A DNA stretch of 34,088 nucleotides from Calocera cornea HHB12733 (lineage: Eukaryota > Basidiomycota > Dacrymycetes > Dacrymycetales > Dacrymycetaceae): positions 51,973 through 86,060 of the forward strand of contig KV424055.1 of assembly GCA_001632435.1 (NCBI GenBank), given 5' to 3'. Shown in pieces: positions 7,029 through 25,327 of this stretch. The position numbers and the translations under genes are program-made. How positions within the stretch are numbered: position 1 is the first letter of the stretch; the number at the start of each line of letters is the position of its first letter. The notes under the pieces are model-generated. The model was not told the DNA's origin. It did not search any database and saw only the letters and a list, made by a program, of their open reading frames with translations.

Positions 7029-7168
7029 GCTGGGGGAGGGCGAGCCGTAGGACGGGCTGCTGGGGGAGGGCGAGCCGTAGGACGGGCTGCTGGGGGAGGG
7101 CGAGCCGTAGGACGGGCTGCTGGGGGAGGGCGAGCCGTGGGGCGGGCTGCTGGGGGAGGGCGATGCAG
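7029..7168. repeat. G-rich 30-bp minisatellite, fourth locus
   Basis: Five units at 7029, 7059, 7089, 7119 and 7149 with core GCTGGGGGAGGGCGAGCCGT. The period is 30 bp rather than 33 bp, still a codon multiple. It abuts the ATG at 7028 of the minus-strand gene, so it is either a 5' UTR/promoter array or a coding array of SPSPSSPSYG units. Confidence 0.9.
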
Positions 7169-7216
7169 CTGATCTGAGGTCAGAAGGGTCATACGTCTGG
7201 CCAGTAATGTGCTCAC

Positions 7217-8917: not shown

Positions 8918-9004
8918 TCATCGGGATCTTCTAAATCCAGCGAACAGGAATCGCAGGACGAGCGCGAGGGCGAGTATGCCGACGAGCCCGCGCTCCTTGG
9001 TCAT
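8918..9004 (-). CDS. Short downstream ORF with one membrane segment (28 aa)
   Basis: An ATG frame starting MTKERGLVGILALALVLRF and ending FRRSR. A single hydrophobic helix is flanked by basic residues. It starts 16 bp after the stop codon of the small spliced gene at 9021-9313, on the same strand. It could be a second cistron on that transcript, the readthrough tail of an alternatively spliced form, or chance. Confidence 0.25.
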   Translation of the reverse strand: MTKERGLVGILALALVLRFLFAGFRRSR

Positions 9005-9020
9005 GCGGCGCGGCTTGTGT

Positions 9021-9313
9021 CTAGTCGGCGTTGCCGGGGAAGCTCTGGGGCGGGACATCGTCCTCCTCGCCTTCGGAGCCGGGGAACTCCTGCTTGTATT
9101 GCTTTGGCTGGCGGTAGGGGCCAGAGGTGGCCCACTGCTTGAGCTTCTGGAAGAGGGTGCGGGCGGACGATGGGTGCAGCTGGTGCGGAGCTGCCGAGGC
9201 GGGTGCGGCTTGGCCCGAGGAGGCGGGCGAGAGCTGGGCGGGGGACGCGGATGTGGACTGGAGGGCAGGTGAGCGGTACGATCACTGGATGCGGAGAGCA
9301 CGCTGCTTACCAT
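9021..9313 (-). CDS. Small protein with KLK-WATSGP and FPG motifs (79 aa), family member 1
   Basis: Exon 1 is only the ATG at 9311-9313. A 53-bp intron (GTAAGC ... CTCCAG, 9258-9310) follows, then exon 2 at 9021-9257. The protein starts MSTSASPAQLSPASS and has a Pro/Ala/Ser-rich N-terminal half. It then contains KLKQWATSGPYRQPKQ, QEFPGSEGEEDD and a terminal QSFPGNAD. The WATSGP block matches the gene at 23538-23973 almost residue for residue. No signal peptide or membrane helix is visible. A TATA box sits about 115 bp upstream of the ATG (9426-9431). The function is unknown and I know of no described family with these motifs. The splice model is supported by the paralogues having the same ATG|intron structure. 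Confidence 0.75.
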
Positions 9314-9425
9314 TATAAATGTAGTTCGGGGGAGTGCTCCGAGTCAGAGACTGATGGTTGCTTAGTGAGCAGGTGGGGAGCGACGACGAGTGATGGCGCT
9401 TACCTCTCACCGCCTCTCAAGGTCT

Positions 9426-9431
9426 TATATA
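9426..9431 (-). promoter_or_regulatory. TATA box of the 9021-9313 gene
   Basis: On the minus strand the sequence reads CGTATATAAGACC, about 115 bp upstream of the start codon. The spacing is similar to the TATA-like sites of the two paralogues (about 131 and 136 bp). Confidence 0.6.
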
Positions 9432-9608
9432 CGACCTGCACCGTGCGTCACGTTCCTGCCCCTCTCCGTCGCGTTCGCGCCATCTTTTCAGTGGCGCTCT
9501 CCGCTCTGCTCCGACCTGGTCAAAACACCAGGTACTGTGGGCGCCTAGGAGCGTACGCGCCCGACATCCGACGTAGTCTTCGCAAGACGTAAATGAAGCT
9601 GAGAGCAA

Positions 9609-9618
9609 GTCCGCGGAC
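9609..9618. promoter_or_regulatory. Palindrome GTCCGCGGAC, copy 1
   Basis: A perfect 10-bp palindrome containing CCGCGG half-sites, upstream of the minus-strand small gene. The same decamer occurs at 9813 and at 23331, the latter upstream of the paralogue at 23538. CGG/CCG half-sites are what Zn2Cys6 transcription factors typically bind (family knowledge); its use here is inference. Confidence 0.5.
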
Positions 9619-9812
9619 GAGGGACAGAAGTCATATGTGGAGTGTCCAGTCAGAGAGCGCGCTGGAAGCGAGCGCCCGGAGGAGGCCGGGCAAAGGCGGC
9701 TGGTTGGCGGAATAACGTGGTGCAGCAGCTTAGTCAGCAGGTGGTTGACACCGAATTGCACCCGAGGGCGGAGGGGCTGGCTCCGGCTTGCCCCGTCGTC
9801 CCGGGTTTGCCT

Positions 9813-9822
9813 GTCCGCGGAC
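9813..9822. promoter_or_regulatory. Palindrome GTCCGCGGAC, copy 2
   Basis: Identical to the copy at 9609, about 200 bp further upstream of the same gene. Confidence 0.5.
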
Positions 9823-10316
9823 GGCCCAGGTCTCCCACTCTCAACAACACCTCGATGCTCTATTTCTCTGATTGAAGGTAGTGGAGGGGATGGCCCATGC
9901 AGCTGGTCATAAATGCTGAAGAACCCATTGACATCATTGTGCCCTTGCCAAGGCACTCTCCACACATGGGCTGTGCGGATAGACGAACCCGTCGACAGCG
10001 GCACCATTCATACAATATCCATGTATGACGGGGAGATACCCTGACTGCTACCCTGACAATACAGCAGGTAGGGCCCGTGTGACCGATGACGTCGCTTCCA
10101 GTCCTGATCGCCCTTAGCTCGGCGAAAGTTGGAATTCAGTATGGACATCACGGGCCGTTTTTCTATTGTCAAGATCGGAAAAGGTCGTGCGGACAGTACG
10201 CGGGCCTGGGCCGGGCTGTACCGGCCTCTTCTCCCCTATCTGTTCGAGCCGCGGCCATGGCTTTTCTCCCCGCAAGGACCACTGCGACATGTTGCCCGCG
10301 GGATGAAGTGCGCAGA

Positions 10317-10324
10317 CATAAAAC
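10317..10324 (+). promoter_or_regulatory. TATA-like box of the 10460-10736 gene
   Basis: CATAAAAC lies about 136 bp upstream of the ATG at 10460. Spacing agrees with the TATA boxes of the two paralogues. Confidence 0.4.
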
Positions 10325-10459
10325 CCGTTGCAGTTCCAGGACATCGACGCGCAGACGAGGTCGTGGCCCTCCCTGAGAAGCTGTTCTCCGAACACGCACG
10401 TTCCCCAGTGCCAAACCGCTGCAACCACACCCTTCTCTGCAAAACAACGCATCAGCAGC

Positions 10460-10736
10460 ATGGTATGTTCTTTGTTGCGCACAGCTTCCGACAATGGCTA
10501 ACGGCTACCGGCAGTCTTCCACACCACCCCCGCCCTATCTCAGCCCGTACCTCTGCCCATACCGGAGCGCGGAATCGTCGTCCTACTTCCCCGACGTCGC
10601 CCCGCCACCCTATCAGGAAGTTGCGCCCGCACTTGCGCCCGCAGACCGTCGTCGGCTGCTGCTGAAGCTTCGGCGCTTAGCCGCTTCTCCGCGCCCTGTC
10701 GTGCCGCAAAAGCTGGTCGTCCGAAATGCTGACTAG
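10460..10736 (+). CDS. Small PPPY-containing protein (74 aa), divergent family member 2
   Basis: Exon 1 is only the ATG at 10460-10462. A 52-bp intron (GTATGT ... GGCTAACGG ... CAG, 10463-10514) has a perfect CTAAC branch site, and exon 2 runs 10515-10736. The protein begins MSSTPPPPYLSPYLCPY and has a second PPPY motif (APPPYQEV). It then has LLLKLRRLAASPRPVVPQ, which aligns with the KLK-WATSGP block of the other two members, and SYFPD in place of FPG. PPxY motifs generally bind WW domains such as those of Nedd4/Rsp5 ligases (family knowledge); a role here is inference. An alternative unspliced start at 10494 would give an 80-residue protein with a different N-terminus. The proposed mobile element begins 268 bp downstream. 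Confidence 0.65.
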
Positions 10737-11003
10737 AGTCCCCCGGCCCTAGCCCTTTTAGAGTGGGGAAGGAGGATGGAGAACGCCACTTATTCCTTCT
10801 TGCCAATGTACCGTATTGCATATCACTGTATCCCTAGTTTTGACGTACCATCACGTGACCACGCCATTCCTACTGTATTTGTACACCCAATAGACGAGAA
10901 TTGCCCCTTGGTTACCCGAGCGCCTAAAATCGAGTGGAGGGTCCCGGAGTGTATCGCGGCCGGCGCCGATCCGAAGCGTCGGCACAGTTGGAGCGGTGCG
11001 TTG
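10737..11003. other. Downstream flank of the small gene, left of the element
   Basis: Presumably 3' UTR and spacer. No gene seen. The four bases 11000-11003 (GTTG) are repeated at 23260-23263 and are read as a target-site duplication. Confidence 0.5.
11000..11003. repeat. Putative target-site duplication, left copy (GTTG)
   Basis: GTTG directly precedes the left inverted repeat, and the same tetramer directly follows the right inverted repeat at 23260-23263. Four-base duplications occur with integrase-type DDE enzymes. A 4-bp match alone has about a 1/256 chance of being random. Confidence 0.5.
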
Positions 11004-11031
11004 GTACGGAAGCCTTCCGTGGACAGCTCGC
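11004..11031 (+). repeat. Left terminal inverted repeat
   Basis: It begins GTACGGAAGCCTTCCGTGG and continues ACAGCTCGC. It is the reverse complement of 23232-23259 with a single mismatch at base 26 (C versus T). The outer 15 bases form a near-palindrome (ACGGAAG-C-CTTCCGT). Just inside, GGACAGC and GCTGTCC can pair into a hairpin (11021-11041). Confidence 0.7.
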
Positions 11032-11254
11032 TATGCTGTCCGCAAACGTCTTCTGGTACCGGGCTGCGCTAGACAGCTGTATCGCCACTCCGTCGGTCTT
11101 AAGATAAGGTCTTCGTACCTTTTTTAAATACTTTTGCGGAGTTCAGACTTGTTGCCTCCGCCGGCAGTCCCCCTTTGCCGGCTTTCAGTCTTAGCCGGCG
11201 TCTTTTGCGCACCGGGTGTTCCTTGCACCACAGGGACAAAGCAAGTGAAAGAAT

Positions 11255-11277
11255 GGTATGTAATCTTGCTGGCCGTC
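11255..11277 (+). repeat. Element repeat core, leftmost copy
   Basis: GGTATGTAATCTTGCTGG followed by CCGTC, matching the core of the ~100-bp repeat family. The following GGCCAGC pairs with GCTGGCC inside the copy, giving a short hairpin. It lies downstream of the minus-strand gene ending at 11383. Confidence 0.85.
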
Positions 11278-11382
11278 TTGGCCAGCAATATAATTAATCC
11301 AGCAATGAACAATGATCAGTACCTATTCTTTACAATGTATCGCTGGGCCCCGTAGTGAACCGCAAACCGCCCCCCTGTGCTC

Positions 11383-12618
11383 CTAGGACGCCATAAAGCG
11401 GGCGATCATGAGAGCTGTAGATATAGTTAGTCAGTTGTAGCTAGAATCAATGAGAGAAAGCTTACCCAATGCGATCAGCGTCGTGACGATCTTGTCGCCG
11501 TTCTCCCAGAGACACTTCACCACGATCGTCGCCGCCCTGCGCACCATCTTTGCCGCTTCCTTTGGGTGAGTGGCCAACCACCCCTTCACCTTGCCAACAC
11601 GATAGGACGCCATGCCCTTGGCATCACGCACGCGCTGCTTGAGCGTGCGCGGGTGGATGTCCTTGTAGGCCTGCGCGCCCTGCTTGCGGCCCGTCTGGTA
11701 CTCCGCCTCCAGGGCGCGGTCGCTCTTGCGCCGCAGGCCGGCCTCCACGCGGGCGTTGTGCAGCTCCTGCCGGGCTTCTTCTTCGAACCAGCCCACCGTC
11801 TGGCCCAGATGGCGCCAGCGAACACCCTCGCCGGCCATCTCGGTTGACCTTGCGGTAACGGGGTCGAGCTTGACGACCTTCTCTTCCATGCACCGCGCGA
11901 TGATAGGGTGCACAGCGCTGGTGCTGTCCGCCGGCGTATCCTGCTGCCTGTCCTCGGGGGCCTGCGCATCCTCGAGCCGGTGAGCCTGCGCGTCCTTTGT
12001 CTCCGGCGCTTGCTGTCCCTGCCGTTGCGCCGCCGGTGCATGATCCTGCTGCTGGGGCAGATCCGTCTCGTCGTCGTCGTCATCGTCAATCTCGTCAGGA
12101 TCTCCGGCAGCGTGCCTAGGGTTATTCGGTGCGATCTGGAGGCGGGTCAGCAAGAAAACGCGCAGGCTGGTCTCCGACGACCAGCAAGATTACATACCAC
12201 CTGCCCAAAGGCAGATGTATGCGCTCTGAAGGCTGCAGGTACTCACCTTGACAGCCCCATCCACCACTACCAGCAGCTCCTCAAACTCCACCGCCGTCAG
12301 TGGAGCCGTCGCCGACCCCTTCTTGGCGAGCATCTCGGCGAAGATGCGCTTCAGGAGCACCTGCTCCTCCCGCGAGACGACGATCTTGCCCTCCACGATC
12401 TCGGTGTTCTTGAGCTTGCCTTTGAGGGCGGACGGATCGGCGAGGATGGGGAGCTTGGGCTTGCTGCCGGCGGAGTCGTTCAGCGCGGGCGCTGGCTTCT
12501 TCCAGACGCCGGTCAGCTTATCGGCAGCGTCCACGCAATCGGCCAGCGAGCCGTCCGAGTCCGGAGAGGAGGGCGACTGGGAGTTGGCGCCGGCGAGAGA
12601 CGAGAGGACGGATTCCAT
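11383..12618 (-). CDS. Element gene 1: acidic/Gln-rich protein with hydrophobic C-terminal tail (357 aa)
   Basis: Exons 12247-12618, 11466-12135 and 11383-11414. It starts MESVLSSLAGANSQ at 12618 (A at -3). Intron 1 is 111 bp, twice the usual length here, because it contains a copy of the element repeat (12176-12199). Intron 2 is 51 bp with a perfect CTGACTAAC branch. The protein has a Ser/Pro-rich start, a predicted helical segment (VLLKRIFAEMLAKKG), an Asp run followed by Gln/Ala-rich sequence, and a basic helical part (GRKQGAQAYKDIHPRTLKQR). The C-terminus ends IVTTLIALALMIARFMAS. The last 32-bp exon completes this hydrophobic tail, compatible with a tail anchor. No family recognised. Confidence 0.75.
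12176..12199 (-). repeat. Element repeat core inside intron 1 of gene 1
   Basis: On the minus strand it reads GGTATGTAATCTTGCTGGTC then GTC. It lies in the sense orientation of the host gene within its first intron (12136-12246), which it appears to have lengthened. Confidence 0.85.
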
Positions 12619-13282
12619 CGTCGACAGTAGGTAAGCGTTAAGTCGAGATGATGGTAAGGACAGAAGGGGGAAGAGGAATGGTCCGCCTGCATACACAGGT
12701 GCGTACAGGGGCTACTGCATTAGGGTCCGCCGGGATTAGGAGAAGAAGCCGGCGCCAGCGGTGCAGCCTCGAGGCTGCAACGAAGCTTTGTGGCCAACGG
12801 ATTTCCAGGGGCCGGTGTGATGCGATGGTGTGCGCACATCGCATCGCAAGATTACGTTGTATGTAATCTTGCTGGTCGTCACCTCGAGGCCAGGGTATCT
12901 ATGCCAGCCGGATTGTTGCTTTCAGCGCTGGAAGGGGCCGTATGTCGCCTAGATACCATTGTAAATCATAGCAGATCGTAGAGACAAAAGGAAATCGAAT
13001 CGGGAATGTCCACGAATGTAAACAATGACGACCCTGAAAATCGGTCTGAGCAAAATCACGAGCCGGCGGCGGATCCAAAGTCGAGCAAAGGGGCGAGCTC
13101 ATCGCCTCAAGACCCCTGCTCATCGTCTCCGACTCTCTAGCAACAACGACCACGACCTACTGACTCAACCTGCTGCTGATATCTCAAAAGCTTTCAGAAT
13201 CTGCGATCAAGTAAGCTGAACTATATCTCAGTGCTCTGGCTCCATGCTGATTACTTGCAGGTTCAACTCAAACCTGCCGGCG
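12619..13282. other. Divergent region between element genes 1 and 2
   Basis: It contains the repeat core with hairpin at 12846-12880. A plus-strand ATG frame (13006-13140, 44 aa, MSTNVNNDDPENRSEQ) could be a first exon of the next gene. A strong intron runs from GTAAGC at 13211 to CAG at 13260 with a CTGAT branch. I could not find a phase-consistent join from this frame into the downstream CDS, so the intron may lie in the 5' UTR. Confidence 0.45.
12846..12880 (+). repeat. Element repeat core with perfect 10-bp hairpin
   Basis: GCAAGATTAC and GTAATCTTGC are perfect inverted arms separated by 7 bp. The right arm is part of the usual core TATGTAATCTTGCTGGTCGTC. It lies between the two divergently transcribed element genes. 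Confidence 0.85.
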
Positions 13283-14417
13283 ATGGATGAGTGTACGCGC
13301 GAGGTTCCAGGAGATGTATCGCCACTGTTGCGTTGGGAGCAGGGCGATCCTATCGTCCAAGGTACACTTGTCCTTGAGAGTCGCTGTATGTGCGTGACTG
13401 ACATTCTCCGCAGACGGCGGCCCGCCAGTCAAGTCCGAAGGAGTGGATAGCCCGGAGCAGCCTGTTGGCGCAGTTGCTCGGGGCAAAGTCCACAGCGCAC
13501 TTCAAGAGCAAGAGGACGATCAGCAAGATTACATACCAACAAACTTCCTTCGCCTGCGGGAGGGCCTGGCAACCGACACCGTTGCCTCAGAGAACGCCTG
13601 TTCAGCGATCTCTGACGTTCAGCAAGATTACATACCAACAAGAGTCGATTGCCTTCGGATCGATGCAACTGCTCTATGCCGGCGGGAGAGCGCGCCCTCT
13701 GTCGTCAACACAGCGGCCAATGTGGCACAGCCGGCTCTGGTCTCGGGTTCAGCTTCCCCCCCGGCTGTCGTCTCTAGGCAGTGCGACGACAGCGCTGATC
13801 TAGGCACCGAGTTCAGCGCGAGCGTCGAGGTCCAGGGAGAAGCACAAGCTGTGAAAGCGACGACCCCTCCCCTTAGCAACAGCGTCGATTCCGTCGTAGA
13901 TGTTCTGCTACAGCACGAGAGCGACATGATCGATGAGGCACCGCCCAGCTATGAGTGGTCCGTCCTCCTGGCACCCGTCTACAAGGCTAGGATGAAGAAG
14001 AAGAAGCCGGCCGACACTCTCCCCACCCCTCCTCATTCGCCGGCTGGATCTCCTGGCCCTTTGGCCATCGATCTCCACGAGATCACGGCCTGGAACAAGG
14101 CTCGCGCCCAGCAGATCGTCGCCCGCGAGCTGGCTCGTCCGAACACCAAACTTAATCCAAACTCCAATCCCCATCCGAACTCCAATTCGCACAGTACACC
14201 TCTTCCCTTGCCGGCTGGCTCTCCTGGGCTCTTGGCCATCGATCCCCACGGGATCACGGCCTGGAACAAGGCTCGCGCCCAGCAGATCGTTGCCCGCGAG
14301 CTGGCTCGTTCAGACATCAATCACCAACCTAACACCGTGTTGTCCCAAACACGCTCATTCAAGAAGCACCACTCCTTCTTCAGCACCGCTGTGCGCCTCG
14401 TCACTGGCAGGGCGTAA
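13283..14417 (+). CDS. Element gene 2: unknown protein with internal duplication and repeat-derived segment (about 360 aa)
   Basis: Exons 13283-13361 and 13414-14417 are joined by a 52-bp intron (GTACAC ... GTGACTGAC ... CAG) with matching phase. The start MDECTREVPGDVS at 13283 is the first ATG of that exon; the true start may be further upstream. Residues of about 60-120 are encoded by two copies of the element repeat in reverse orientation, read in frame as QQDYIPT twice, 34 codons apart. A PPSY motif follows (EAPPSYEWSVLL), then a KKKKP basic patch. Two near-identical ~35-residue copies (ITAWNKARAQQIVARELAR) come next. The C-terminus is basic (KKHHSFFSTAVRLVTGRA). No family recognised. 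Confidence 0.65.
13514..13639 (-). repeat. Two element repeat cores inside a coding exon, 100 bp apart
   Basis: Cores at about 13514-13538 and 13614-13639, reverse orientation relative to the copies in the 20-kb array. Both translate as QQDYIPT in the host gene's frame. The spacing matches the ~100-bp unit length seen elsewhere in the element. Confidence 0.88.
14038..14310 (+). repeat. Coding duplication of about 99 bp, two copies 174 bp apart
   Basis: Copies at about 14038-14136 and 14212-14310 are nearly identical (roughly 90 percent by eye), from CGGCTGG...CTCCTGG through ACGGCCTGGAACAAGG to GAGCTGGCTCG. The intervening sequence is Asn/Pro/Ser-rich (LNPNSNPHPNSNSH). Both copies keep the reading frame. 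Confidence 0.88.
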
Positions 14418-14880
14418 GCCCATCGTTCCATGCCCATGTCTGCTTCTACTATGCTTTCCCTCCCCTTTCCCACCCTTTCCTCCACTGCTCCGCTCTATCC
14501 CGCGCTCCCCTGAGGGGGAAGCTCACACTTTCTTTGTTCATTAGAAAATCATTGTATTTAGGCATGTAGCACCAGGGACCAACTCAATGTCACTCGTTTG
14601 TATCGATTATCACGGCAGCCAGCGTGCATAAACGCTAGCCTGCGGGCGGTCGAACTCGAGCAAGCCGGCGATACCAGGGAACGACAGTGGATTAGATGCG
14701 TGAATCTACGGTACTGTAAAGACGGCAGACAAGAACCAAACGAATGGACGCTGGATCCCCAGCAAAAGGTTCAAGAAACAAGCTAACGAATGGACGCTGG
14801 ATCGCCGGCAAAGGCTACCGAAACAGCTAAATGAATGGACACCGAATCCTTGGCGAATGGTGGAGACCATCTCCTCTGGC
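14418..14880. other. Convergent intergenic region between element gene 2 and the alpha-kinase gene
   Basis: Pyrimidine-rich 3' flank (14430-14520), then a short direct repeat at 14739-14850. No gene seen. Confidence 0.5.
14739..14850. repeat. 46-bp direct repeat, two and a half copies
   Basis: CGAATGGACGCTGGATC starts at 14741 and 14787, with a diverged copy (TGAATGGACACCGAATC) at 14832. It lies immediately downstream of the alpha-kinase stop codon, so it would form part of that transcript's 3' UTR. Confidence 0.75.
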
Positions 14881-17734
14881 TCATTTCGCAACGCAACCGC
14901 CCTGCGCAGCGGCCAGCGCTTTGTGCCTCAAACGGGTGCTTCGGCGTATTGATGTCTCCAAACCTGCTTGGTTTCCACCGGCACATGGGGTGTTTTTCGC
15001 TTGCCGAGAGCGACGCAAAGCTGGAGCCGGCTCCGCAACACCGACCGACCGATCCTTCCCCGTAGGTGGCTTGTCACCACCGGCTTCTACATTCATTGGC
15101 CCACTTTGTACCCCAACCTCCGCCAGTGCGTTCGCCTTTGCTGTAGCCGGAGATGGGAGAGGTGTTGAATCCCTGTTCAAAGAAAAGGGATCCATCGGGC
15201 CATGTGCACTTCGGGCGGCTGCAGGCGCCAGAGGTTCGAGTCCAAATGCCGCGCAGTATTCGTTGCAGATGTGTTTGTTGGGGAAGTCTTCAAAGGCCAT
15301 TGGCACATTCCCGTCCCCAAACACGACTCCGAGAGACCTATAGACACATGTAAGTTTTGACACATTGTCCACGGAAAACATTGAGCATACCGGTCACTCA
15401 AAATCTGCGGGTCAGTAAGCAATGTTAAAGAGCCGTCCCCTTGGTTAAGTGCGCCTGTTGCCAGGGTTAGAAAACGAGCTTTTCAAGAGCTGGCTGATGA
15501 CTTACCTTGATAATCCGTTATCAGTGCCAGTCTTCCTGACTTTTCGTACTGCACATGCTGGAAAAAGCACAGATAGCGGGCCACCGTGCCGGCTTCACCA
15601 TCAGAAACCCTTGGCACTGGCGCGTCGTTGTTGATAAACTTCATGAAGCGCTTTGCAGAACGGTCCTTGACCTTAGCCTTCGTGTCATGAACAATGAGCT
15701 CCTCGATGAGAGTCACCATTTCCTCTGTCTGGGATGGATGCTCCAGCTTCGGCCGCTCATAGCGAAACAAGCCGGCTCGCACCAAGCGGGTGTCAGGAAG
15801 CTCCAGCTTGCTGGCGGCCGAGTCCGGGTGGTCACGCAAGAAGCCTTGAACATATTCCTTGGCGAGCTCGTGTATAGGTATGGCCCAAAAGAGCAAGTTC
15901 CCTTCTCGCTCGAGGAAGCAACACTCCTTCTTGGCGGCTGGGTGATAGCGCGGGCCGCCCGGCGCACGGATAAAGCGCCGTTTGCAGGCCACCTGAGTCC
16001 TTCGACAGACGGGGAACGGTTGCTCCGGCAGGTTCTCCCACGGTATCGGAACCTCTTTCAGGGTAATCTCGGCGGCAAAGGCTTCTTTGAAGGTGCCCGG
16101 CTTGCCCAGCATTTCGCCAGCTGATTCATCAGCCCGCAAGAGGGCATCACAGCCTTTCCCCTTGTAGTCGATGACCAGCTTCTTTTTCTCGCGGATCAAG
16201 TCGGCCCAGTGTAGCTCGGGGATGGGTACAAAGAGTCCCTGGCGTAGGGGAGAAGAGCCTGCTTATGTGTGAGCAACGGGAGGAGACGGTCAAGCGGGCC
16301 ATCATACCGCTTTTGGTTGCCACTTTTCGCGGGTCCGAGTCCATGAGCGCTTGGCGGATAGCATCTATCGATAAGTTGACATCCTGTGTCATACCCCGTG
16401 CTACACGTTTGGGAGGAGCAGATGCTTCTGGGGAGCTGGCTGGCGCTGGACGTTTCCCCATCGGGCGTACCTCTCCGGTAACATATGCCGGCAACCTCTC
16501 AGAATCCCCCGCTTTGCCATCAGCTGAGACAGAAGATAGGAGGTTGCCTTCTAGATGGCGTTGACCGGCTGCTGAGCGGCCATCGGGGACTTGGGGCTGG
16601 CGATGGTAGTTAGGGCCTGCTTGTGTAGGATGCCGCAGGCTCGTATCAGACTATGATAAACATTGGTTAGGGAGAGTTCTTCTCACATACAGCAGGCGAG
16701 GACTTACGATCCACATTTCAACATTGGGCCAGACCTCGGCCTTGATGACAAGCATCACGAGCACGACCTGGTTCTGCACAAAAGTCTTTGTGGTAACACC
16801 GGACTTTGTGCGTTCAATACAGCACTTGTCGTAGACAGCCGGCTGGTCTGGGGCTTTCTTCTCCAGATTCGTGTGTGAGCGTCCGTGGAGCTCGAAGTCA
16901 TCCATGACAAACGGATATCTCCTTGAGTCGTGCCGGAATTTCGGTTCAAGCTCCTTGAAAACCCACTGCTTCAGCTCCGAAGCAGTCAGACGCGCCGGCA
17001 CGTCCTCAAGCTGTTCATAGGATGTCTGTAGTAAAGTCAGTAGCCGGCACGCTTATAAAAGGGCCATCCACGTACCCCGAGCTGTCTTGTCTTACTTTTC
17101 CCCTCCACAGGTATGTGAACAGAGGCGTCCACCCTCATCCACTCCTGCAGGGGTCCCAACATCCTCCGCTTGACTCTCTCGCGCTCATACGGGTACGCTA
17201 CGTGGTTGAGATTGTACCCAACCGGCATCTGAGATTGCTGCATGGCCGGGTGGAACAAATCCCCATATCCACTGCCTGCAGCTGCAGCCGGTCCGTGCGG
17301 ATGACCTGCGACTCGTGTCTGCGCCTGCGGGAAGACCATCCCAACTGCTCGGACTGGTGACTTTCCACCTGCTTATGTTGAGCAAGTTGCAATAATGGCT
17401 GGGGACCCAGCTACTCACCTTGATAATGTGTTCGCTGCATTTTCGCGGTGTCGCGCCGGATTTCTTTCACTGCATCCATAGGGAGAGGCGGGACAACTGG
17501 CATAGGAGAGGCGGCCTGCTCGGAAGATGTTGCTCTGATTATTGTGTCGGTTCTTGATGCATAGATTGTGATACACTGCAAGCAAGCCGGCCGGGGGGGC
17601 AAGAGGGTGTTTGTCCCCCTGATACGAGGGGTGAAAGCCTTCCAGGGATCGCCGGGGCGCAGGAAGACCTTGCACTCCGGAAGTCCTTGGCAAAGGCCAC
17701 CTTTGAAGTCGGTAATTGCTGGAGAGATCTCCAT
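14881..17734 (-). CDS. Element gene 3: alpha-kinase domain protein (847 aa)
   Basis: Seven exons: 17419-17734, 17076-17368, 16708-17025, 16288-16650, 15506-16238, 15391-15454 and 14881-15337. All six introns are GT-AG, 49-57 bp, with consistent phase. Atypical alpha-kinase (eEF2-kinase/MHCK type) features appear in the C-terminal half in the expected order. A Gly-rich-like GKPGTFKEA is followed by a Lys in VACKRR, then VQYEKSGRLALITDYQG and LTDPQILS. The GDGNVPMAFEDF block leads to the zinc-binding HICNEYCAAFGL. The N-terminal ~400 residues are unlike known domains; the C-terminal ~110 are Ala/Pro-rich. The start at 17734 (MEISPAITDFKGG) is the longest ATG; 17503 and 17479 are alternatives. 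Two element repeat cores lie just upstream (17746, 17845). Predicted Ser/Thr kinase activity; substrate unknown. Kinase cargo in an integrase element is unusual. Confidence 0.85.
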
Positions 17735-18441
17735 TCTCGACGCGTGGTATGTAATCTTGCTGGTCGTCTCGGGGCGACACTGGCGGTCTTCGAGGCAATG
17801 CTTTGGCTGGCTGGCGTCTCCCACAGGCGAAGGGAGGGTCTTGGTGGTATATAATCTTGCTGGTCCTTGGAGCCCGAAAGGGCGGTCTCCAGAGCGTGTA
17901 GCAGGAAGAGATCTATGTGCAGCGGTGTGCGTGCTTCGCCATATCCGCTTATAGGGCTGGCTTGTCTCCCCATAAGTGGAATTTTCTGCGTCTCTAACAC
18001 GGCTAGAGGGATTTTCTGCGTGCCATTATCCTGCCGAATTTTCTTACACGGGTATCCGTTGATCGAAATTGGCAGCGGGAGGTGGGACGACCGGTGCTCC
18101 AGGATCGCAAGCTGTCCAAACCGGTTCACATCTGGCTGGGACAGGTTGGAAGCCTGCAGGCTCCGTGTCTGGGCTTACTTCTTATCTGCAGATGAGGTCA
18201 GCAGCCTTGACCTCAGCCGGCCGCCGTACAGATCGTTGCTTGGCAGCTCCGTTTAGAAGCTTTGGATGTGAAGATGGCCGGATGTAATCGTCATCCTCGC
18301 GGTCTTCTTGATGCGGAGGTATCGGGCTTGATGTTCTAGCCGACCGCCCTGGAGTCCCAATAATACGATGATCTGTACAGAGCACTCCCGTATCTTGTCA
18401 TCTACCTGGCCAGCTCTCTGCACTCTCTGCCGGCTGAAACA
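17735..18441. promoter_or_regulatory. Divergent region between alpha-kinase and integrase genes
   Basis: It contains one complete ~99-bp repeat unit bounded by cores at 17746 and 17845. A short degenerate repeat of GAATTTTCTGCGT lies at about 17978-18045. No coding frame with splice support was found. It probably holds both promoters. Confidence 0.5.
17746..17867 (+). repeat. Element repeat: one full ~99-bp unit plus next core
   Basis: Core GGTATGTAATCTTGCTGGTC at 17746 and GGTATATAATCTTGCTGGTC at 17845. Between them are the conserved sub-blocks GGCGGTCTTCGAGGCAATG and CACAGGCGAAG, also recognisable in the 20.2-20.8 kb array. The first core ends 12 bp beyond the alpha-kinase start codon region (ATG at 17734). 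Confidence 0.88.
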
Positions 18442-20190
18442 ATGCAGGAGCGCCTGCGACGGCCGAATCAGCATGACCAAGCGGTTCCTGACCACATTTT
18501 GCGCCCGCTGGTGGAGAAGTACTACTTGTTCGGATATGGGGACAAGAAGATTCTGAAATCAATATCGCGGGAGGTGGATCTGAGAGCACATAGCTGGACA
18601 CTCTCGTACGTCACTTATTTATGCAAATACAACCAGACAGCTGAGCCAAAGACAGGACCAAAACAATCCAACGCCGGCGAAAAGAATGGAGGCTGCCATC
18701 TGTGAAGCAGCAAGCGCATACGTTCGAGACGATTGCACCTTACGTGGAGCAGGTCCGGCTCTACACGAACAACCGGCTGGGTTCCAAATCGATTCGAGAT
18801 CACCTACGGCAGGAGCGGATCCTAGTATCGCGCAAGCTGGTCCAAGACTACAACCAGGCGGTGGATGCAGACGGCAATCGGCAACGGCTAGTGAAAAGAC
18901 TCAAGCCACAGTTCAATTGGAGCACCGGTCTTCATGAATGTTGGTCGATGGACCAGCATGATAAATGGCGTCGCTTTGGTCTCTTCCTGCATGTCGGGTT
19001 GGAGGAGTTCTCGAACTACGTGTTGTGGCTTAAAGTATGGTGGACAAACTCCAACCCACGACTGATTGCCAGCTTTTACCTTGACGCAGCCGGCTTACAA
19101 GGTGGTACGTCTGTTGACCCGCATCTCGGATTGTAGCCTGACGTTTGAAAGGGATACCGCTCATCACTCAAAGTGATCCTGGGACAGAGAATTATGGCAT
19201 TGCCAATGCTCAGACGACCTTGCGCCGGCAGCTGGATCCCACGCTCGAAGGGACACTCCAACATCGATGGATGCGCGGGCATGCCAACATCAAGCCAGAG
19301 ATATTCTGGTCGAAGCTCCGGCGCCAATGGTCTGAAGGATGGGAGCTTCTGTTTCAGGAAGGAATCATAGCCGGCTGGTATGACCCTTTGGTCCCATTAG
19401 AACTGTGCGTGCAAGACTATTATCCATAATAGGCCGGCCAACTGATTGTACATCAGACTATTGTTTCGTTGGCTGGCAGTTCCAATGATTCAGCAGGATC
19501 TCGATCGCTTCAGGCGAATCCACAACACAAGCAAACCCCGACGAGATAAGAAGAAGAGAATGCCGGCAGAAATACCTGCTATGTTATTCGAGCATCCGGG
19601 ATACTATGGACCATTTCTGAACTACAAGGTGAGTGATTTCTGGTTGCCTCTACGCAGTGTACATGAAATCATTCCGATGCTTAGATTGGAGTCGCAAAAC
19701 CCCAGCTGCGTGAGGCGGCTGAGCTGTTTGCTCCAAAGGAGCATCATGTATTCCGGCTGGTGCCGGCTGCCTTTAGCCAGCATGTCACAACACTGTATAA
19801 CAGTGCGCGCTCCTCTTATCTCCCCCGACCTCGGGTTAACACTCTTTTCTAGGCCTTGGTAAACCCCTTGTGGAACGGGGTTCTTTCTGGGACATCTACA
19901 ACATGCTGTTGAAAGGCTTCGCTGAACTCCCCGCCGGCGAGGCCCTGCCGCTACAGCAGGCGGCAGCACAGAATGCCATTGACGAAGCCAAAGTCCAGCA
20001 CGAGTTTATGGACATCCTCGAAGGAAAACCAGTACGCGGGGCGGCTAAGGCGATTCCCTTCGGCGGCGAGCCGGCAGAGGATTATGACGAGGAACCCGAC
20101 ATAGAAGAGGACGACGTTGAGAGTTGCGGGTATTCCGAAGGGGGTGACGTAGCAGATCTTCCAGTATACGAGGTTACAGCTACCGCCTAG
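18442..20190 (+). CDS. Element gene 4: integrase-core (DDE) transposase (485 aa)
   Basis: Six exons: 18442-18605, 18692-19104, 19152-19404, 19457-19628, 19685-19802 and 19853-20190. Phases are continuous. It starts MQERLRRPNQHDQAVPDH. An N-terminal helical DNA-binding-like region is followed by an integrase core of the type abundant in mushroom genomes. The first acidic motif is CWSMDQHDKWRRFGLFLH, followed by LWLKVWWTNSNPRLIASFYLD. The second is TQSDPGTENYGIANAQTTLRR, and then GTLQHRWMRGHANIKPEIFW, probably supplying the Glu. LEHPGYYGPF-type sequences (MLFEHPGYYGPFLNYK) and a GSFWDIYNMLLKGF helix precede an acidic tail. Both putative Asp residues and the Glu are present, with no stop or frameshift, so it looks intact. 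Exon 2 uses a less typical acceptor. This gene is the likely mobilising enzyme of the element. Confidence 0.88.
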
Positions 20191-20996
20191 TTATTAGCGA
20201 GTATGTGATAGCTTAATGTTGGTATCAAAGCCTAGATGAATGAGTGTGGTATGTAATGTTGCCGATGGCCGCTGCCGGCGGGGGTTAACTGAGAGCTTCG
20301 TGGTATGTAATCTTGCTGATCGTCTGGGCTGCCGACAGGCAGTATCCAGGCCATGGTGTTGGTTGCCGGCCCCGGCTGCAGGCGAAGTACCATTAAAGTT
20401 GGGATGTAATCTTGCTGATTGTCGTAGCCGGTATTCGAGGCAATGGTGTCGTTTTCCGGGCTGGCCCGCAGCCTGCGGGCGTATCGTGGAATGTAAACTT
20501 GCTGGTCGTCGCAACTAGCTGAGCAGGCGCTGTTTGACGCAATGCGGCTATTGGCCGGTCCCTCCCGCAGCCTGCAGGTGGCTCGTAGTATCCGATCTTG
20601 CTGATCGTGGGGCCCGCTGAGCCGGCGGTCTTCAACGCGATCCTGTTGAGCACCAAGACCTCCCGCAGCCGGTGGGTGGGTCCTGGTATGTAATCTTGCT
20701 GATTGTGCATGTCTCGGCTCTCCTGCAGGTCAAAGGCTGAATATGTTGGTATGTAATCTTGCTGATCGTCAGAGATCAGCAAGATGATTGCGCGGTGGTT
20801 GGAATCCAATGAATGAATGGAAAAAGCGTGCTTGGATCATTATAGATTGCAATTGGACGGGTACATGATGATGAGTAGTCTATAGTAACAGGAGCCCAGC
20901 ATGAACCCCTTCATCTCTGACCGAGCGTGTCCTTCCATGCATTGCCGACCTGTGCTCTCGCTCGCCGGCTAATCTGTGATGAGTTCGTTCTTGCGA
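20191..20996. other. Convergent region with repeat array
   Basis: It lies between the ends of the integrase gene (20190) and the minus-strand gene (20997). Most of it is the ~100-bp repeat array; 20790-20990 holds no recognised feature. Confidence 0.6.
20248..20785 (+). repeat. Array of seven element repeat cores, period about 90-100 bp
   Basis: Cores start at 20248, 20302, 20401, 20488, 20586, 20685 and 20748. Full units contain the core GGTATGTAATCTTGCTGATC, then a GGCAATGGTGTCG-like block, then CCCGCAGCCTGCAGGCG. The first and last spacings are shorter (54 and 63 bp). The last core ends in a perfect hairpin (ATCTTGCTGATC ... GATCAGCAAGAT, 6-bp loop, 20756-20785). Units diverge by roughly 10-25 percent, so the array is not recently homogenised. 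Confidence 0.9.
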
Positions 20997-23064
20997 TCAT
21001 TCATCTTCGAAGGCGTTGGGGTTGTGTTGCACCTGCTTGCCGGCGCTGTTCCATTGGTGGAGGGTGAGGTTGGCCGGCGCTCGGGGAAGCTTCTTCGGAA
21101 TGAGTACGGGTGCGACGAAGAGCGACTCGCGTAGAGCAGCTTGAGTCTCCGCCTTCATGTGCGGTGCAACGATGTCTTCGTTGAGACCGTGGAAGACCAA
21201 GTCATGCTGTTTCTCGGCGAAGGAGCGCAATTTCTTCCAATCGAGTTGGGGATACTTCTGGTGCAAGGTCGGCAGGGCTAACAAGTCGCGTACGTACCGC
21301 AGCTTGACGAGGACGGCGTCCTGCTCGAGGTATCCGTCGTCTTCGACCGTCGAGATGTAGTCGAGAAGTGCGTCCATGCGTTCCGCCTTCGTGGGCGCCA
21401 GTTCTGTTGGCCGGAGAGGAATGCCGGGGTGGTTTGGACTTCCCTGCTGAGTGGTCAGCCGGCTGCCGGAAAGCATGAAAGGTGAACATACCAGATCGCC
21501 CATCAGCTTCAAGCATTCTTCGGCGGCCTTGCCCATTACCCTGGAGTCTTCGAGGAGCTCGCGCAAAAAGGAGAGTGCATAGGACTGCCCAAGAGGTTCT
21601 CTGAACCACTTATTGAGATTAATCATCTGCCTTTCGATTGTCTCGGATTGCCAGTCGCTGTCGTCGACGTCTGAATGCAACAGTGTTCCAAGCTATATAC
21701 GCGTCAGCGGTGAGATGAGGAAGAAGAGCCGGCAGAGACTCACCTGGGGCTGGGGCGGGGTGGGATGAACAGGCTGAGGCGGCCTTATAAAGCGGAGCGG
21801 AGGGAAAGTGGGTCGACGGAGCGGGGCAGGGTGTTCGGCGCGGGGCGGGTTCGCCGGCTGGCTGCTTGATGCCTGCGAAGGAAGGGAGGGCTTTGGAAGG
21901 TGGACCGTCAGCGGGCTTGGACGCTTGGTCGAGGTATTGGAGGGCTTCGGGGAGTTAACCGCCGGCGGGCTCGAATGCTTGCTTGTCTGCACGTGCACCG
22001 GTGTGGGGCTTTCGACTGGAGGGGGTGATGCGTCAGTAGCCGTTTGCAGCTGATTGCCGGAGTTGAGCCGGCTGCGAGAGCGTAGAGGATACCGATGAGT
22101 CTGGGTTGCCGGCAAGCTGACAGCCGGCGAGGCTGCGTGGGAAGGCTGCGAAGGAGTGCCAAACGGGTCCGCAGGCGCCGGACCGGCAGTGGAAGAGCCC
22201 GCTGTGGGTCTGTCTGGCTGGAGGTTACGAGGGGGAAGGGGAGGGTGCGAACGCGGCGCGCGACGGGCAGTGCGGCGACCAGGAGAGACAGGAGGGACAG
22301 CTAAGGGCGATGTACGGGTAGCTTGCCGTTCTTCTGGGTCGAAGATACCGCGGGCCGGCGCTGCATCCAGTATATGGGGCTGTTCCTCCGGCTGGTCTTC
22401 ATCAGCAGGAGGGGGGTTCGGGTCATTCGCAGGGTTGGGGAGGATGGGATTCCTGGGACGGGCCGGCGGCTGAGACTCGAGCCAGAGTAGAAACTTCTTG
22501 TGCGCAATGTCGGTGCGCGCCGGGTGACAACTTCCATCCTTGACGCGGATAGTCCAACCCAAGTCCCAGAAAGGGCGTTCGCCAGGTAAGAAGTAAATAA
22601 CTTCACGCTCAGGAAGCGCAAGAGCCAGGCGAGCATAGACACGCAGGCTTCTGCGCCAGTGCCACTCTGCGTCAGAGATCAGCGCCGGCAGGGGATGAGA
22701 GTAAGGTGGGCGTACCCCAATACGAGCATTGGACGTAGGCCTGCGGACTGCCGGCATAGCAGCAGGCTGGTAGTAATGAGCGCAGTACAGAGGCACAGTA
22801 GTGAGGAGACTCACAGTATCGTTTGCGCACCACCCATTTCCCATTCTCCATCACGCGGTGCCGCTCGACGGTCGCCGGCCGGAAGTGATAGCAGATCGTC
22901 CGGCTGCCATCCCAGACCGCGCCATGGAGCAACATCCAGTAGGGCCACCACTTCACGTCCATAATATCGATCACTTGATCTTCATCGGGCTTCTCTTCGA
23001 TATGTTGAATCGGCCGGAGGGTTGACAGAATGACGTACGCAGCTGGATCGATAGGTTTAGGCAT
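20997..23064 (-). CDS. Element gene 5: unknown Pro-rich protein (634 aa)
   Basis: Exons 22815-23064, 21744-22747, 21492-21692 and 20997-21446. Introns are 67, 51 and 45 bp. The last is a multiple of three with no stop, so retention would still give an open frame. It starts MPKPIDPAAYVILSTLRPI. The N-terminal ~190 residues look globular and Trp-rich (DVKWWPYWMLLHGAVWDG, FWDLGWTIRVKDG). Residues of about 200-410 are Pro/Ser-rich and basic. The C-terminal ~210 are helical (LNKWFREPLGQSYALSFLRE, LRYVRDLLALPTLHQKYPQ). No family recognised. Its start is 168 bp inside the right inverted repeat. Confidence 0.75.
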
Positions 23065-23231
23065 CGTAGAGTGGTGGGGCCGACGAGCAACGACTAGTGC
23101 GCTGGCGAGCGAGCAGATAACCGGTAGCGGCTGTGCAAAACCTGCGGGAGCAAATAAATGCAGTCTGCACCCGCATTTACCCCAAATTGGGTGAAATACC
23201 CCGCCGGCTTATCCCCGACGGATGCAAATAT

Positions 23232-23259
23232 GCAAGCTGTCCACGGAAGGCTTCCGTAC
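23232..23259 (-). repeat. Right terminal inverted repeat
   Basis: It reads GCAAGCTGTCCACGGAAGG then CTTCCGTAC on the plus strand, the reverse complement of 11004-11031 with one mismatch. Similarity stops exactly at GTAC on the outer side in both copies. Confidence 0.7.
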
Positions 23260-23263
23260 GTTG
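23260..23263. repeat. Putative target-site duplication, right copy (GTTG)
   Basis: Directly follows the right inverted repeat and matches 11000-11003. Confidence 0.5.
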
Positions 23264-23330
23264 GCGACGGCCGCACGGGGTGGCTGTGACGTCCGCCTTC
23301 GGGGGATAGCGGAGGCGCCGACCTCCTATT

Positions 23331-23340
23331 GTCCGCGGAC
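23331..23340. promoter_or_regulatory. Palindrome GTCCGCGGAC, copy 3
   Basis: Perfect 10-bp palindrome about 200 bp upstream of the ATG of the small gene at 23538. The only other copies I found in the window are the two upstream of the paralogue at 9021-9313. Confidence 0.5.
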
Positions 23341-23397
23341 CACTGACCCTTCGCAACCTCCATCCGACTTTTTTCTCCTTCATATGAAGATCGTGTT

Positions 23398-23407
23398 CTA
23401 TATATAT
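23398..23407 (+). promoter_or_regulatory. TATA box of the 23538-23973 gene
   Basis: CTATATATAT, about 131 bp upstream of the ATG. Confidence 0.6.
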
Positions 23408-23537
23408 TCACACGTCTCAGAGAGATGTTGGGAGCCTCAGCATCCCCACATTCGCATCGGCGATTCAGCTCGCTAGCTGATTTACCCAGAATTCACAAGT
23501 TTCCGCATCCCCTAACTTGGTCCGCAAAGTCTACACA

Positions 23538-23973
23538 ATGGTATGTCTCTTCCTTTCATCGGTCAGTTCTTTTGCTAATTTCCTCTCTGTAGTCTACGCA
23601 ATTTAGTCCAACCAACTCGCGCGCGCCGTCTCTCGTCATCCCCACCTCCACCGACTCCCTTCTTCCTCCGTACCCTCGCTCGCCCTATCCAGCTCCCCCG
23701 CCCTCGCTTCTCCACAAGCTAAAGCACTGGGCTACCTCGGGACCGGAGCGACAGCCCCAACTAAGCGAGCAGCAGTTTCCCGGCCAAGTGACGCGACATC
23801 ACGGGCAGACGTTCCCAGGCGCCGTGAACTCGTCGAGTCATCAATCCTTCCCTGGAGAGAATTTGCGGATACGTGATCAGCAGTTCCCAGGAGAGATGTC
23901 GAGACAACGCGGGCAGGTGTTCCCTGGTGCCGTACGGTGGTCCAGGGACCAGGTGTTCCCTGGAGAGGTGTAA
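23538..23973 (+). CDS. Small protein with six 12-residue FPG repeats (127 aa), family member 3
   Basis: Exon 1 is only the ATG (23538-23540). A 52-bp intron (GTATGT ... GCTAAT ... TAG) follows, then exon 2 at 23593-23973. The protein starts MSTQFSPTNSRAPS, has an LPPY-type proline-rich part (LLPPYPRSPYPAPPP), then KLKHWATSGPERQPQL. The C-terminal half is six tandem copies of a 12-residue unit: QQFPGQV, QTFPGAV, QSFPGEN, QQFPGEM, QVFPGAV and QVFPGEV, with basic/polar linkers such as TRHHG and SRQRG. No signal peptide, membrane helix, CAAX box or dibasic processing sites are visible. It shares the ATG|intron structure, MS(T/S) start and WATSGP block with the gene at 9021-9313. The function is unknown and I know of no described family. 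Confidence 0.78.
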
Positions 23974-24209
23974 TCTGACTTCTTCATTGTACACATAGTC
24001 TCCGCGGTTTTGCGCTCGCGCCTTTATCATCTTTGGTCACTCCTCAGTTGTATCTCAGTTTCACCGCCCCCGTTTACCTATACAGTATTCACTAGTAATC
24101 GACTGCAAGCAATACTATGTAGTTACTCAGAAACATCTATGGGGTAGAATGACCACTGGATCGCGTCTCCCTCCACCTCACAACCTGCTCCACCTTCGCG
24201 GTACGTGCT

Positions 24210-25327
24210 TCAATCGAGCGTGTCGAGGAAGTCTTGCAAGGCCGCTCTGGTTATATCTTTCCATTTTGCGGTATTCTCAGTGGCAATTTCAAGGCGGTGC
24301 AGAGTGTTATCCAGCATCTCGTCCCAAACTCTCATGAAATCCCGCCTACCCTCCGACTTCTTGATACCATGCATCGACTGCAGGATCTTCTGAACTCGAC
24401 CTTCGAATTCTTTACTGCGTTTGCACTGCATAATGAGCGATAGGAGTTCCTCCGCCGATGTTCGAAGGTGAATTTCAGCCGGTGGAGCCGGCATCCGAGT
24501 GGGCAACTGGTCGGAAAAGGAAAGCCGACGGCCGTGACGTTTTGGTACAGAAGTGGACGAGTCGCTGTCCGCGTCCGTCTGTGGCATATTGGTCCCAGAA
24601 TCTTCGTCCGTTGAATCTGTCAATGAATGCTGGTGCATGTCCGCAGAGTCCACTAGCGAAGAAGAGCCAGCTCCAGGAAGGGCAGTCATATCAGGTGCTT
24701 CGACGCCCCCGTGATACTGAATATCCCCATCACGCCCTGTTAGGTGGCACCAGCGTCAGCCGATCAAGTTGAGAACAATCAATGAGACTCACCGATAGAC
24801 TCATCTGGAGTCTGGCACCTGACATAGCTTTGTTCAATAGATATCGGTGGTCCGGGGGGGTGGCAGAGATTCGGAACAAATTTGGGCCAGTCTACCACGG
24901 GGACAAGAGGTTGCCCTACGGCCCTCGGCGCACGGTCTTGTGCAGCACGCCCGATCTGACTGCCTGTACTGGTTGTGAATCACCTTGCTGAAGTGGGCTG
25001 GATGCATGACTCACGAGCCTCGGAGGAAGCCTTGGTGACGGCCATTGCACAGTTACGATGTTTCTCTACCACCTGGCAAATGTAGCATCCATCTTTGCCA
25101 TGCTCTTCCCTAACACAAGGCTTTTGTAGCCGTTGACAAGCAACGCACTTGCCCACTCCGACGTCAACCTCCAACAACAGTCAGACAGATGTGGTCACCA
25201 GACTCAAAAAGGTCAGTCGGCGTACCAGGAGTGTCAGCTGACCCCGGGGAAATGCAATCCTGGTGGTCTGGTCCCGATACTGCCACAATTCGTCTACCGT
25301 TGACAAGCAGGGTTTTACGGGATGCAT
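24210..25327 (-). CDS. Zn2Cys6-like cysteine cluster protein, possible regulator (317 aa)
   Basis: Exons 25226-25327, 25015-25168, 24793-24963 and 24210-24736, all phase-consistent. It starts MHPVKPCLSTVDELWQYRD. Residues of about 42-74 contain six cysteines spaced C-x2-C-x6-C-x9-C-x2-C-x8-C (from CVACQ to HRNC), which fits the fungal Zn2Cys6 consensus (C-x2-C-x6-C-x5-12-C-x2-C-x6-8-C). Typical Zn2Cys6 domains have more basic residues between cysteines 2 and 3; here QRLQKP is only moderately basic. The middle is Pro/Ser/Asp-rich. The C-terminal ~90 residues are predicted helical (AEELLSLIMQCKRSKEFEGR), possibly for oligomerisation. No fungal-specific TF domain is present, so it is short for a classical regulator. 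It lies next to the small-gene family, whose upstream regions carry CCGCGG palindromes. Confidence 0.72.

Follow-up and report, generated by a model that had tools for sequence, protein, structure and literature searches.

What is the block of five genes that lies between inverted repeats in the fungus Calocera cornea HHB12733, and did its genes come together as one set? The window considered here is the whole stretch of 34,088 nt analysed, positions 51,973–86,060 of the forward strand of contig KV424055.1 (GCA_001632435.1); genome-wide searches covered the host genome only, and loci are named by contig (C5, C26, C43, etc.). A sequence-only reading of the window had proposed a 28-bp inverted repeat with a GTTG duplication on its flanks. 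The repeat is indeed present (11004–11031 and 23232–23259, 27/28 matching), but 14 further pairs of related ends, set beside it, show that its outermost base pair does not belong and that the element starts at TA, giving a whole element of 12,254 bp (11005–23258). End comparison thus yields terminal inverted repeats (TIRs) of 27 nt with 26 matching—TACGGAAGCCTTCCGTGGACAGCTCGC on the left (11005–11031, + strand) and its counterpart on the right (23232–23258, − strand)—and reading of the flanks yields a perfect 6-bp target-site duplication, CGTTGG (10999–11004 and 23259–23264), of which GTTG is the inner part.

These ends belong to a family. The host genome holds 51 matches to the TIR, as against none for the reversed control, with the consensus TAYGGARGC...CGYGGACAGCT in inverted orientation (ends TACGGAAGC). 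Flanks were read for 30 of the 51 matches, which form 15 pairs (the remaining 21 are unpaired in the list and lie outside the duplication count), and all 15 pairs are flanked by perfect duplications, 13 of them of 6 bp and two of 7 bp. Twelve of the 15 are short elements with no match to the window genes A–E among those listed. At C16, C119, and C282, the ends are 96–97% alike through the final TIR base and unrelated beyond it, save for one base in one pair. Within the window, a scan for 20-nt inverted ends (at most 6 mismatches) flanked by duplications of 6 or 7 bp, run over 7 kb on the left by 6.5 kb on the right, recovered the window pair with no mismatches and one other pair with 6. A chance inverted repeat is ruled out by the 51 matches against none in the control, the 15 duplications, and the exact boundary; so is the promoter-motif alternative that the sequence-only reading had itself raised, since similarity stops exactly at the TIR, a true boundary. 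That reading had also named a lack of further copies as a refutation; further copies exist for the TIR, but the whole 12.3-kb element is single-copy, with no second copy in the host genome.

The five genes, on alternating strands as first described, all stand as open spliced models, built from sequence alone. Gene A (11383–12618, − strand; 357 aa; exons 12618–12247, 12135–11466, and 11414–11383) and gene B (13283–14417, + strand; 360 aa; exons 13283–13361 and 13414–14417) form a divergent pair between the left TIR and gene C; A has no Pfam match and B none over the cut-off, and Pfam detected no DNA-binding domain in either. Gene C (14881–17734, − strand; 847 aa, 7 exons) encodes an alpha-kinase (PF02816, E 5.6e-14) that aligns to eEF2 kinase across the TDPQI / FGDGN / H-x-CN-xx-C block. 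Head-to-head with it lies gene D (18442–20190, + strand; 497 aa, 6 exons), predicted to encode an integrase-core transposase by its match to rva_4 (PF24764, E 2.3e-9), with no Pfam match to rve (PF00665); we propose D154, D213, and E254 as its putative catalytic triad, assigned by eye from motifs, with 40 residues between D213 and E254. Gene E (20997–23064, − strand; 633 aa, 4 exons) has no Pfam match, and its relatives are listed for residues 389–591 only. Neither A nor E matched NCBIfam, neither D nor A matched PDB, and the predicted fold of A (exon 2; pLDDT 53) is of no use as structure. We rejected a virus origin: D had no match in viral_contigs, C had one unconfirmed pattern match, and the dispersed motif described below had one match, taken as chance.

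Across the genome, relatives of D mostly travel with a divergent alpha-kinase gene C, and E lies downstream at a few loci. A D relative occurs within 10 kb of 17 of the 23 alpha-kinase loci recognised by Pfam (chance at most 2% for each), leaving six without D; among 33 kinase loci found with protein C alone, 23 have a D relative near, head-to-head by listed strands in 21 cases. Conversely, nine of 32 D loci, grouped by hand from 96 D matches, lack a kinase neighbour by matches within 10 kb, and four of those nine belong to another rva_4 family. High-scoring rva_4 loci (C34, C94, C2, C21, C52, C48, and C14; at least 200 bits) make up this separate family, which is 23–25% identical to D at four listed loci, all four without a kinase match within 10 kb. 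Identity of D and score of C are correlated (Spearman 0.78) over 17 of 22 non-window pairs, with one hand-picked exon identity listed per locus; C20, C130, C23, and C64 (no protein C score) and C295 (partial match) were left out. Two sister elements carry these genes between TIRs with target duplications—C, D, and E at C43 (7.3 kb), and C and D at C5 (7.5 kb), where E was not among the matches listed. Ends for C25, C155a, and C155b were searched for and not found. Stops seen in D relatives might have marked them as pseudogenes, a view we rejected when spliced alignment placed the stops in introns: at 10 of 11 loci tried, no frameshift or stop interrupts the aligned range, although a false intron may mask a stop and this result does not extend to the relatives' start and stop codons. 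The nine open loci besides the window are 40–64% identical to the window D, with introns mostly at common positions. From the company that D relatives keep, C-D, with E, is likely to be the core of a transposon family, and we hold with near certainty that the mobile core is a cut-and-paste DNA transposon with D as its predicted integrase-core (D-D-E) transposase. The sequence-only reading had called the element an autonomous or recently active multigene integrase transposon; it does look autonomous, given the TIR family, the duplications, the open integrase gene, and the sisters, whereas recent activity has for its basis just the open genes, near-identical TIRs, and perfect duplication.

Among known systems, the element fits a TIR DNA transposon with an integrase-core transposase in its exact-boundary TIRs, its near-fixed duplication length, and its predicted D-D-E core, the triad being read by eye. 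Integrase-type DNA transposons include Ginger, IS3EU, and Polinton/Maverick, which have an integrase-core transposase, TIRs, and a short target duplication in common with the window element; it differs from all three in having rva_4 without rve, an alpha-kinase partner, and a TIR starting TACGG. Target duplications measure 6 bp in Polintons and IS3EU, 4 bp in Ginger, and 2–3 bp in CACTA elements. The 6-bp duplication of the window element thus agrees with Polintons, but protein-primed DNA polymerase B, protease, packaging ATPase, and capsid domains are absent from its five proteins by Pfam; it departs from Ginger, and it agrees with IS3EU in duplication length. Starships are large multigene fungal elements whose captain is a DUF3435 tyrosine recombinase; the window element is likewise large and multigene, but it has TIRs and an integrase-core protein, and Pfam found no such captain among its five proteins. 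Nor does it resemble an LTR retroelement, as its ends are inverted and no reverse transcriptase domain was found by Pfam in the five proteins.

The A-B pair has a different distribution. Its relatives occur at three other loci—C7, C26, and C149, with B relatives beside A relatives—that have no D match near and lie apart from C-D-E. C26 alone among these loci was read further for a transposase (951 bases); there, a CACTA-type transposase (Transposase_21) adjoins the pair, and the 3' end of B with 3' non-coding sequence is common to C26 and the window (72%, 178 nt). Likeness between C26 and C149 starts at (T)CACTGCATG, an end for which no inverted partner was found at 3 or fewer mismatches and which was not found in the window element; inside the latter, the only two instances of CACTGCA or its complement, at 17468 and 17574, both fall in gene C. 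The element has the A-B module and its motif in common with CACTA/EnSpm transposons, as seen at C26, but differs in its 6-bp duplication and in having neither Transposase_21 nor CACTA/CACTG ends. The five genes, at first taken as one set, thus divide: C-D, with E at some loci, recurs, whereas A-B appears from sequence comparison to be a separately occurring module, extra to C-D(-E), so that the five are not one ancestral set.

A dispersed motif, TGGTATGTAATC-NNN-CYGRTC, accompanies the A-B pair and is present in both the window element and the C26 setting. It has 47 matches in the host genome against one for the reversed control; 12 are in the window, and 32 of the other 35 fall on six contigs (C26, C149, C249, C7, C239, and C13). 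A looser local scan raises the count in the window element to 14: TGGTATGTAATCTTGCTGRTCGTC, followed by an inverted arm (11254–11277, + strand); a 24-nt copy in intron 1 of A (12176–12199, −); one in the divergent gap between A and B (12857–12880, +); two copies 99 nt apart inside the B coding sequence (13515–13637, −); two in the divergent gap between C and D, directly upstream of the C ATG (17745–17868, +); and a seven-copy array in the convergent gap between D and E (20247–20770, +), spaced 54–99 nt apart, in which five copies have 0–3 mismatches to the 24-mer and the other two have 4 and 5. A tandem-repeat finder reported no array at the motif sites. The NNN subtype is TTG in 12 of 12 window copies, GAT in eight of nine at C7, and GTT in five of five at C149 and seven of nine at C26; subtypes are mixed in C249 and C239.

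We read the window element as an integrase transposon that probably acquired an accessory module from a CACTA element, and several other histories were weighed against this one. A CACTA element or fragment carrying A-B and the motif may simply have inserted in a C-D-E transposon, leaving A-B as a passenger without function for its carrier. That A-B sits at one place, with the left TIR on one side and C on the other, would fit such a nested insertion, as would the position of the C match at C5 and C43, within ~0.5 kb of the TIR, and the inclusion of the 3' non-coding part of B in the similarity to C26. Yet a search of the window element turned up no CACTGCATG end, TTG-subtype copies also occur beyond A-B, in the C/D and D/E gaps, and A and B are open; we regard this history as possible but on the unlikely side. 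Coding sequence might also have been the source of the motif, which reads DDQQDYIPT in one frame; on this view, a 99-nt unit encoding a 33-residue repeat would have spread as decayed coding sequence. The two copies in B are in frame and 99 nt apart, and five of six spacings in the 20247–20770 array are divisible by three; 12 of 14 copies, however, are non-coding in our models (one intronic), spacings of 98 and 100 are out of frame, and the core is kept while the remainder of the unit is ~70% alike. Moreover, the constant part recurs at C26, C149, and C7 in combination with a different subtype, and at C26 and C149 copies lie beyond the A/B matches too; a coding origin seems improbable.

Composition raises the prospect of arrival from another fungus, with the signature of a GCCGGC-rich, single-copy element reflecting the habit of its donor. 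The compositional signature noticed in the sequence-only reading is real: the element contains 56 GCCGGC palindromes (36 coding, 20 non-coding), whereas 21.8 kb of flank has 12, and the 36 in coding sequence exceed a codon-shuffle expectation of 9.3 ± 2.7 (maximum 18 in 500 shuffles), an excess beyond codon usage. An order-4 Markov test does not single out GCCGGC, since CCGGC is itself in excess. Density reaches 4.6/kb in the element, against 0–0.6/kb across stretches from eight D-type loci and ~0.5/kb over 52 kb of upstream sequence from that contig. Enrichment is confined to the window element and absent from its sisters; with no copies in 2.1 kb of A-B pieces from C26, it does not follow A-B. 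Against horizontal arrival, the host genome already contains families that the TIR, introns, and gene order match, and relatives of A-B and of the motif are local in comparisons made within that genome; we consider it unlikely. The view that this is an ordinary cluster of host genes whose inverted repeats arose by chance, for which open genes and D relatives open at 40–64% identity might speak, is refuted by the TIR matches, duplications, and exact boundary set out above, and its probability is close to nil.

Returning to the acquisition of a CACTA module by an integrase transposon, there is good reason to think that A-B was acquired. D would cut at the TA ends and join these to the two target strands at positions 6 bp apart, C and E may serve the element (for example, by phosphorylation of D or of a host chromatin or repair factor), and A-B with its motif may have been gained through recombination with a CACTA element. 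As a guess, A and/or B could bind the motif, marking and protecting their own element. The TnpA protein of Spm binds short repeats dispersed through subterminal DNA, and VANC is the anti-silencing system of VANDAL elements in Arabidopsis; like the latter, the window element combines accessory genes and a short motif that is scattered, mostly in non-coding parts of the same element, and largely uniform in subtype per element, a likeness of arrangement, with host and transposase unrelated. By this analogy, a role for A-B in protecting its carrier against silencing is a tentative suggestion, to which we give less than an even chance. More doubtful is that A-B and its tag form a portable self-recognition (anti-silencing) module passed between unrelated superfamilies, CACTA and integrase/alpha-kinase: carriers differing in tag subtype are as expected if protein and tag co-evolve, but the mixed subtypes of C249 and C239 make subtype uniformity weak, and we hold this reading lower for that reason.

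Alpha-kinases have expanded in some fungi; in this genome, most alpha-kinase loci that were found are tied to a single transposon family (C-D), which offers a testable reason for the multiplication of such kinases. The locus also provides a case of two transposon classes with a common accessory gene pair and sequence tag, a sequence-based hint at an exchange of accessory systems between mobile elements; whether protective systems pass from one transposon to another can then be put directly to the test in binding and methylation assays. Counting in favour of the reading adopted here, the observed/expected CpG ratio is 0.92 in the window element, 0.93 in the C26 A-B pieces (2.1 kb), and 0.92 and 0.91 in the flanks, compared with 0.47–0.51 in stretches of two non-autonomous TIR elements. 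The high value in the window element could result from youth alone. Ten D-type loci without A-B span 0.60–0.96, three of them (C25, C155b, and C26) at 0.91–0.96.

The sequence-only reading had described terminal inverted repeats (TIRs), and these were borne out by a sequence check of the window; comparison with other copies in the host genome (32.1 Mb in 302 contigs, numbered C1 onwards, with the window at C142:51973-86060) moved the outermost base of each end inwards by one, placing the element at 11005-23258 (12,254 bp). The same comparison replaced the proposed GTTG flank duplication with CGTTGG on both sides. When a left interval (7000-14000) was scanned against a right interval (20500-27000) for inverted ends of 20 nt flanked by duplications of 6 or 7 bp, this pair was recovered at 0 mismatches and one other pair at 6. 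Three of ten flank ORFs, all right of the element, had Pfam matches (S1/P1 nuclease twice, one below cut-off, and a methyltransferase), and because of these matches the insertion site looks like ordinary chromosome.

All five proposed genes stand as open models with GT-AG introns, whose shortness suggests a fungal genome: A (minus strand, 357 aa) and E (minus, 633 aa), both without Pfam matches; B (plus, 360 aa), with one match below its cut-off; C (minus, 847 aa), an alpha-kinase (E = 5.6e-14); and D (plus, 497 aa), an integrase-core transposase (rva_4, E = 2.3e-9). The alignment of eEF2 kinase to protein C spans the TDPQI/FGDGN/H-CN-C block, which is the catalytic and zinc-binding part. TIR transposons with an integrase-core transposase are a known kind, and we know of no earlier description of an alpha-kinase partner for one.

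Further copies of the repeat, which the earlier reading had proposed looking for, were found, with 51 genome matches to a degenerate TIR versus 0 for a reversed control. Perfect target duplications flank all 15 correctly oriented TIR pairs read, window included, and are 6 bp long in 13 and 7 bp in two (C16, C124); a D-type integrase would act on the TA-terminated TIR with the 6-bp stagger that these duplications suggest. Twelve of the 15 pairs delimit short elements of 0.4-2.8 kb, within which no A to E match occurs among the matches listed on those contigs. None of the five proteins matches the parts compared of the C16 and C119 elements or of a third end at C282, and these three are 96-97% alike as far as the TIR end and unrelated outside. 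The C5 (7.5 kb) and C43 (7.3 kb) elements both carry D with C to its left, and a gene E match is present in the latter and absent from the former among the matches listed. Two elements of about 0.4 kb (C57:127601-128018 and C172:17689-18082) carry an identical 39-base sequence at either end and are MITE-like derivatives of the family. By eye, the string TCGGTCTTAAGATAAG is common to window 11093-11108 and, about 50 bases inside its TIR, the C275 element, at the kinase-side end of both.

Relatives of D comprise 96 exon matches grouped into 32 loci, four of them accounted for by a high-scoring rva_4 family. In spliced alignments, 10 of 11 D loci, window included, had neither frameshift nor stop (C25 had one of each); since the nine others are 40-64% identical to the window's D, we infer that the D lineages are old and maintained by selection. 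The 25 Pfam alpha-kinase matches fall into 23 loci, of which 17 lie no more than 10 kb from a D relative, versus at most 2% at random, and 15 no more than 5 kb. Adding loci found by protein C alone gives 23 of 33, and a kinase match lies beside 23 of the 32 D loci, the remainder being C155 (at 5 kb), C18, C48 (at 1 kb), C54 and C226, plus all four loci from the high-scoring rva_4 family. By listed strands, 21 of 23 pairs are head-to-head (exceptions C71 and C126), and D identity tracks C score across paired loci (Spearman 0.78, n = 17). Kinase loci without D at C47 and C19 lie near contig starts, 2-2.4 kb from a correctly oriented TIR. That C accompanies D so steadily argues for a function of the kinase in the element. 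Relatives of E, at seven loci and restricted to residues 389-591, adjoin D at C43, C155 and C13, lie 6 kb from it at C295 and beside a TIR at C279, and at C26 and C72 have no D next to them. The second rva_4 family (at least 200 bits; domain in a single open frame of 481-531 aa) was placed by profile score at C34:215290-215853, C94:124645-125208, C2:387164, C21, C52, C48:106276 and C14, with identical scores for C34 and C94.

Genes A and B form an extra module with relatives elsewhere. Protein matches to A lie at C26:78.3-79.5 kb, C149:75.6-76.8 kb and C7:16.7-17.9 kb, besides a weak match at C66; at the first three, B relatives adjoin in the window's divergent arrangement, the matched exons contain no stops, and no D match is nearby. 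The C26 and C149 copies are near-identical (590/600 and 600/600 over the 1,200 bases compared), and their likeness begins abruptly at (T)CACTGCATG, an end that occurs three times in the genome and for which no inverted partner was found at up to 3 mismatches. At C26, the one locus of the three read beyond B as far as the transposase region, a 951-base piece about 1.7 kb past B codes for Transposase_21 (first exon piece E = 2.6e-12, the second below cut-off), the CACTA transposase. To our knowledge, a module common to an integrase transposon and CACTA elements has no earlier description. C26 holds both a C-D locus (229-235 kb) and this A-B locus with its CACTA transposase (77-87 kb), about 150 kb apart. 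The B/C gap of the window, where module and core meet, contains a 46-nt tandem repeat (2.3 copies, 14738-14840). At C275 (about 7190-7850), kinase and TIR of the element are separated by some 2 kb that include an ORF coding for a small and strongly hydrophobic protein, which may be different cargo in the place that A-B takes in the window.

A dispersed 24-nt motif, in which a variable NNN precedes CYGRTC, has 14 copies in the window, 12 outside CDS: 3' of A, in A intron 1, in the A/B gap, in B (two), upstream of C (two) and in the D/E gap (seven). With no more than one mismatch allowed, its 18-nt core has 11 genome copies, all of them in the window. A loosened form has 47 matches versus 1 for the control: 12 in the window, nine each on C7 and C26, five on C149, four on C249, three on C239, two on C13 and one each on C143, C114 and C36. 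The NNN subtype is TTG in 12/12 window matches, GAT in 8/9 on C7, GTT in 5/5 on C149 and 7/9 on C26, and mixed on C249 and C239. By eye, an inverted arm continues from 3 of the 14 window copies and from both copies in stretch L092.

Action of A-B by promoter activation alone fits poorly, because the largest motif array lies where D and E face each other with their 3' ends; the better fit would be 'self' marking all along the element. We lean somewhat against a protective role of A-B. CpG is undepleted in the window element and the C26 pieces, in line with protection, but youth explains this equally well, and CpG is also undepleted at three D-type loci without A-B.

The compositional signature noted for the element's genes is upheld by an excess of the palindrome GCCGGC, with 56 copies in the element, where no other palindromic hexamer exceeds 10, and 36 in CDS versus 9.3 in codon shuffles; in stretches of eight D-type loci it occurs at 0-0.6 per kb.
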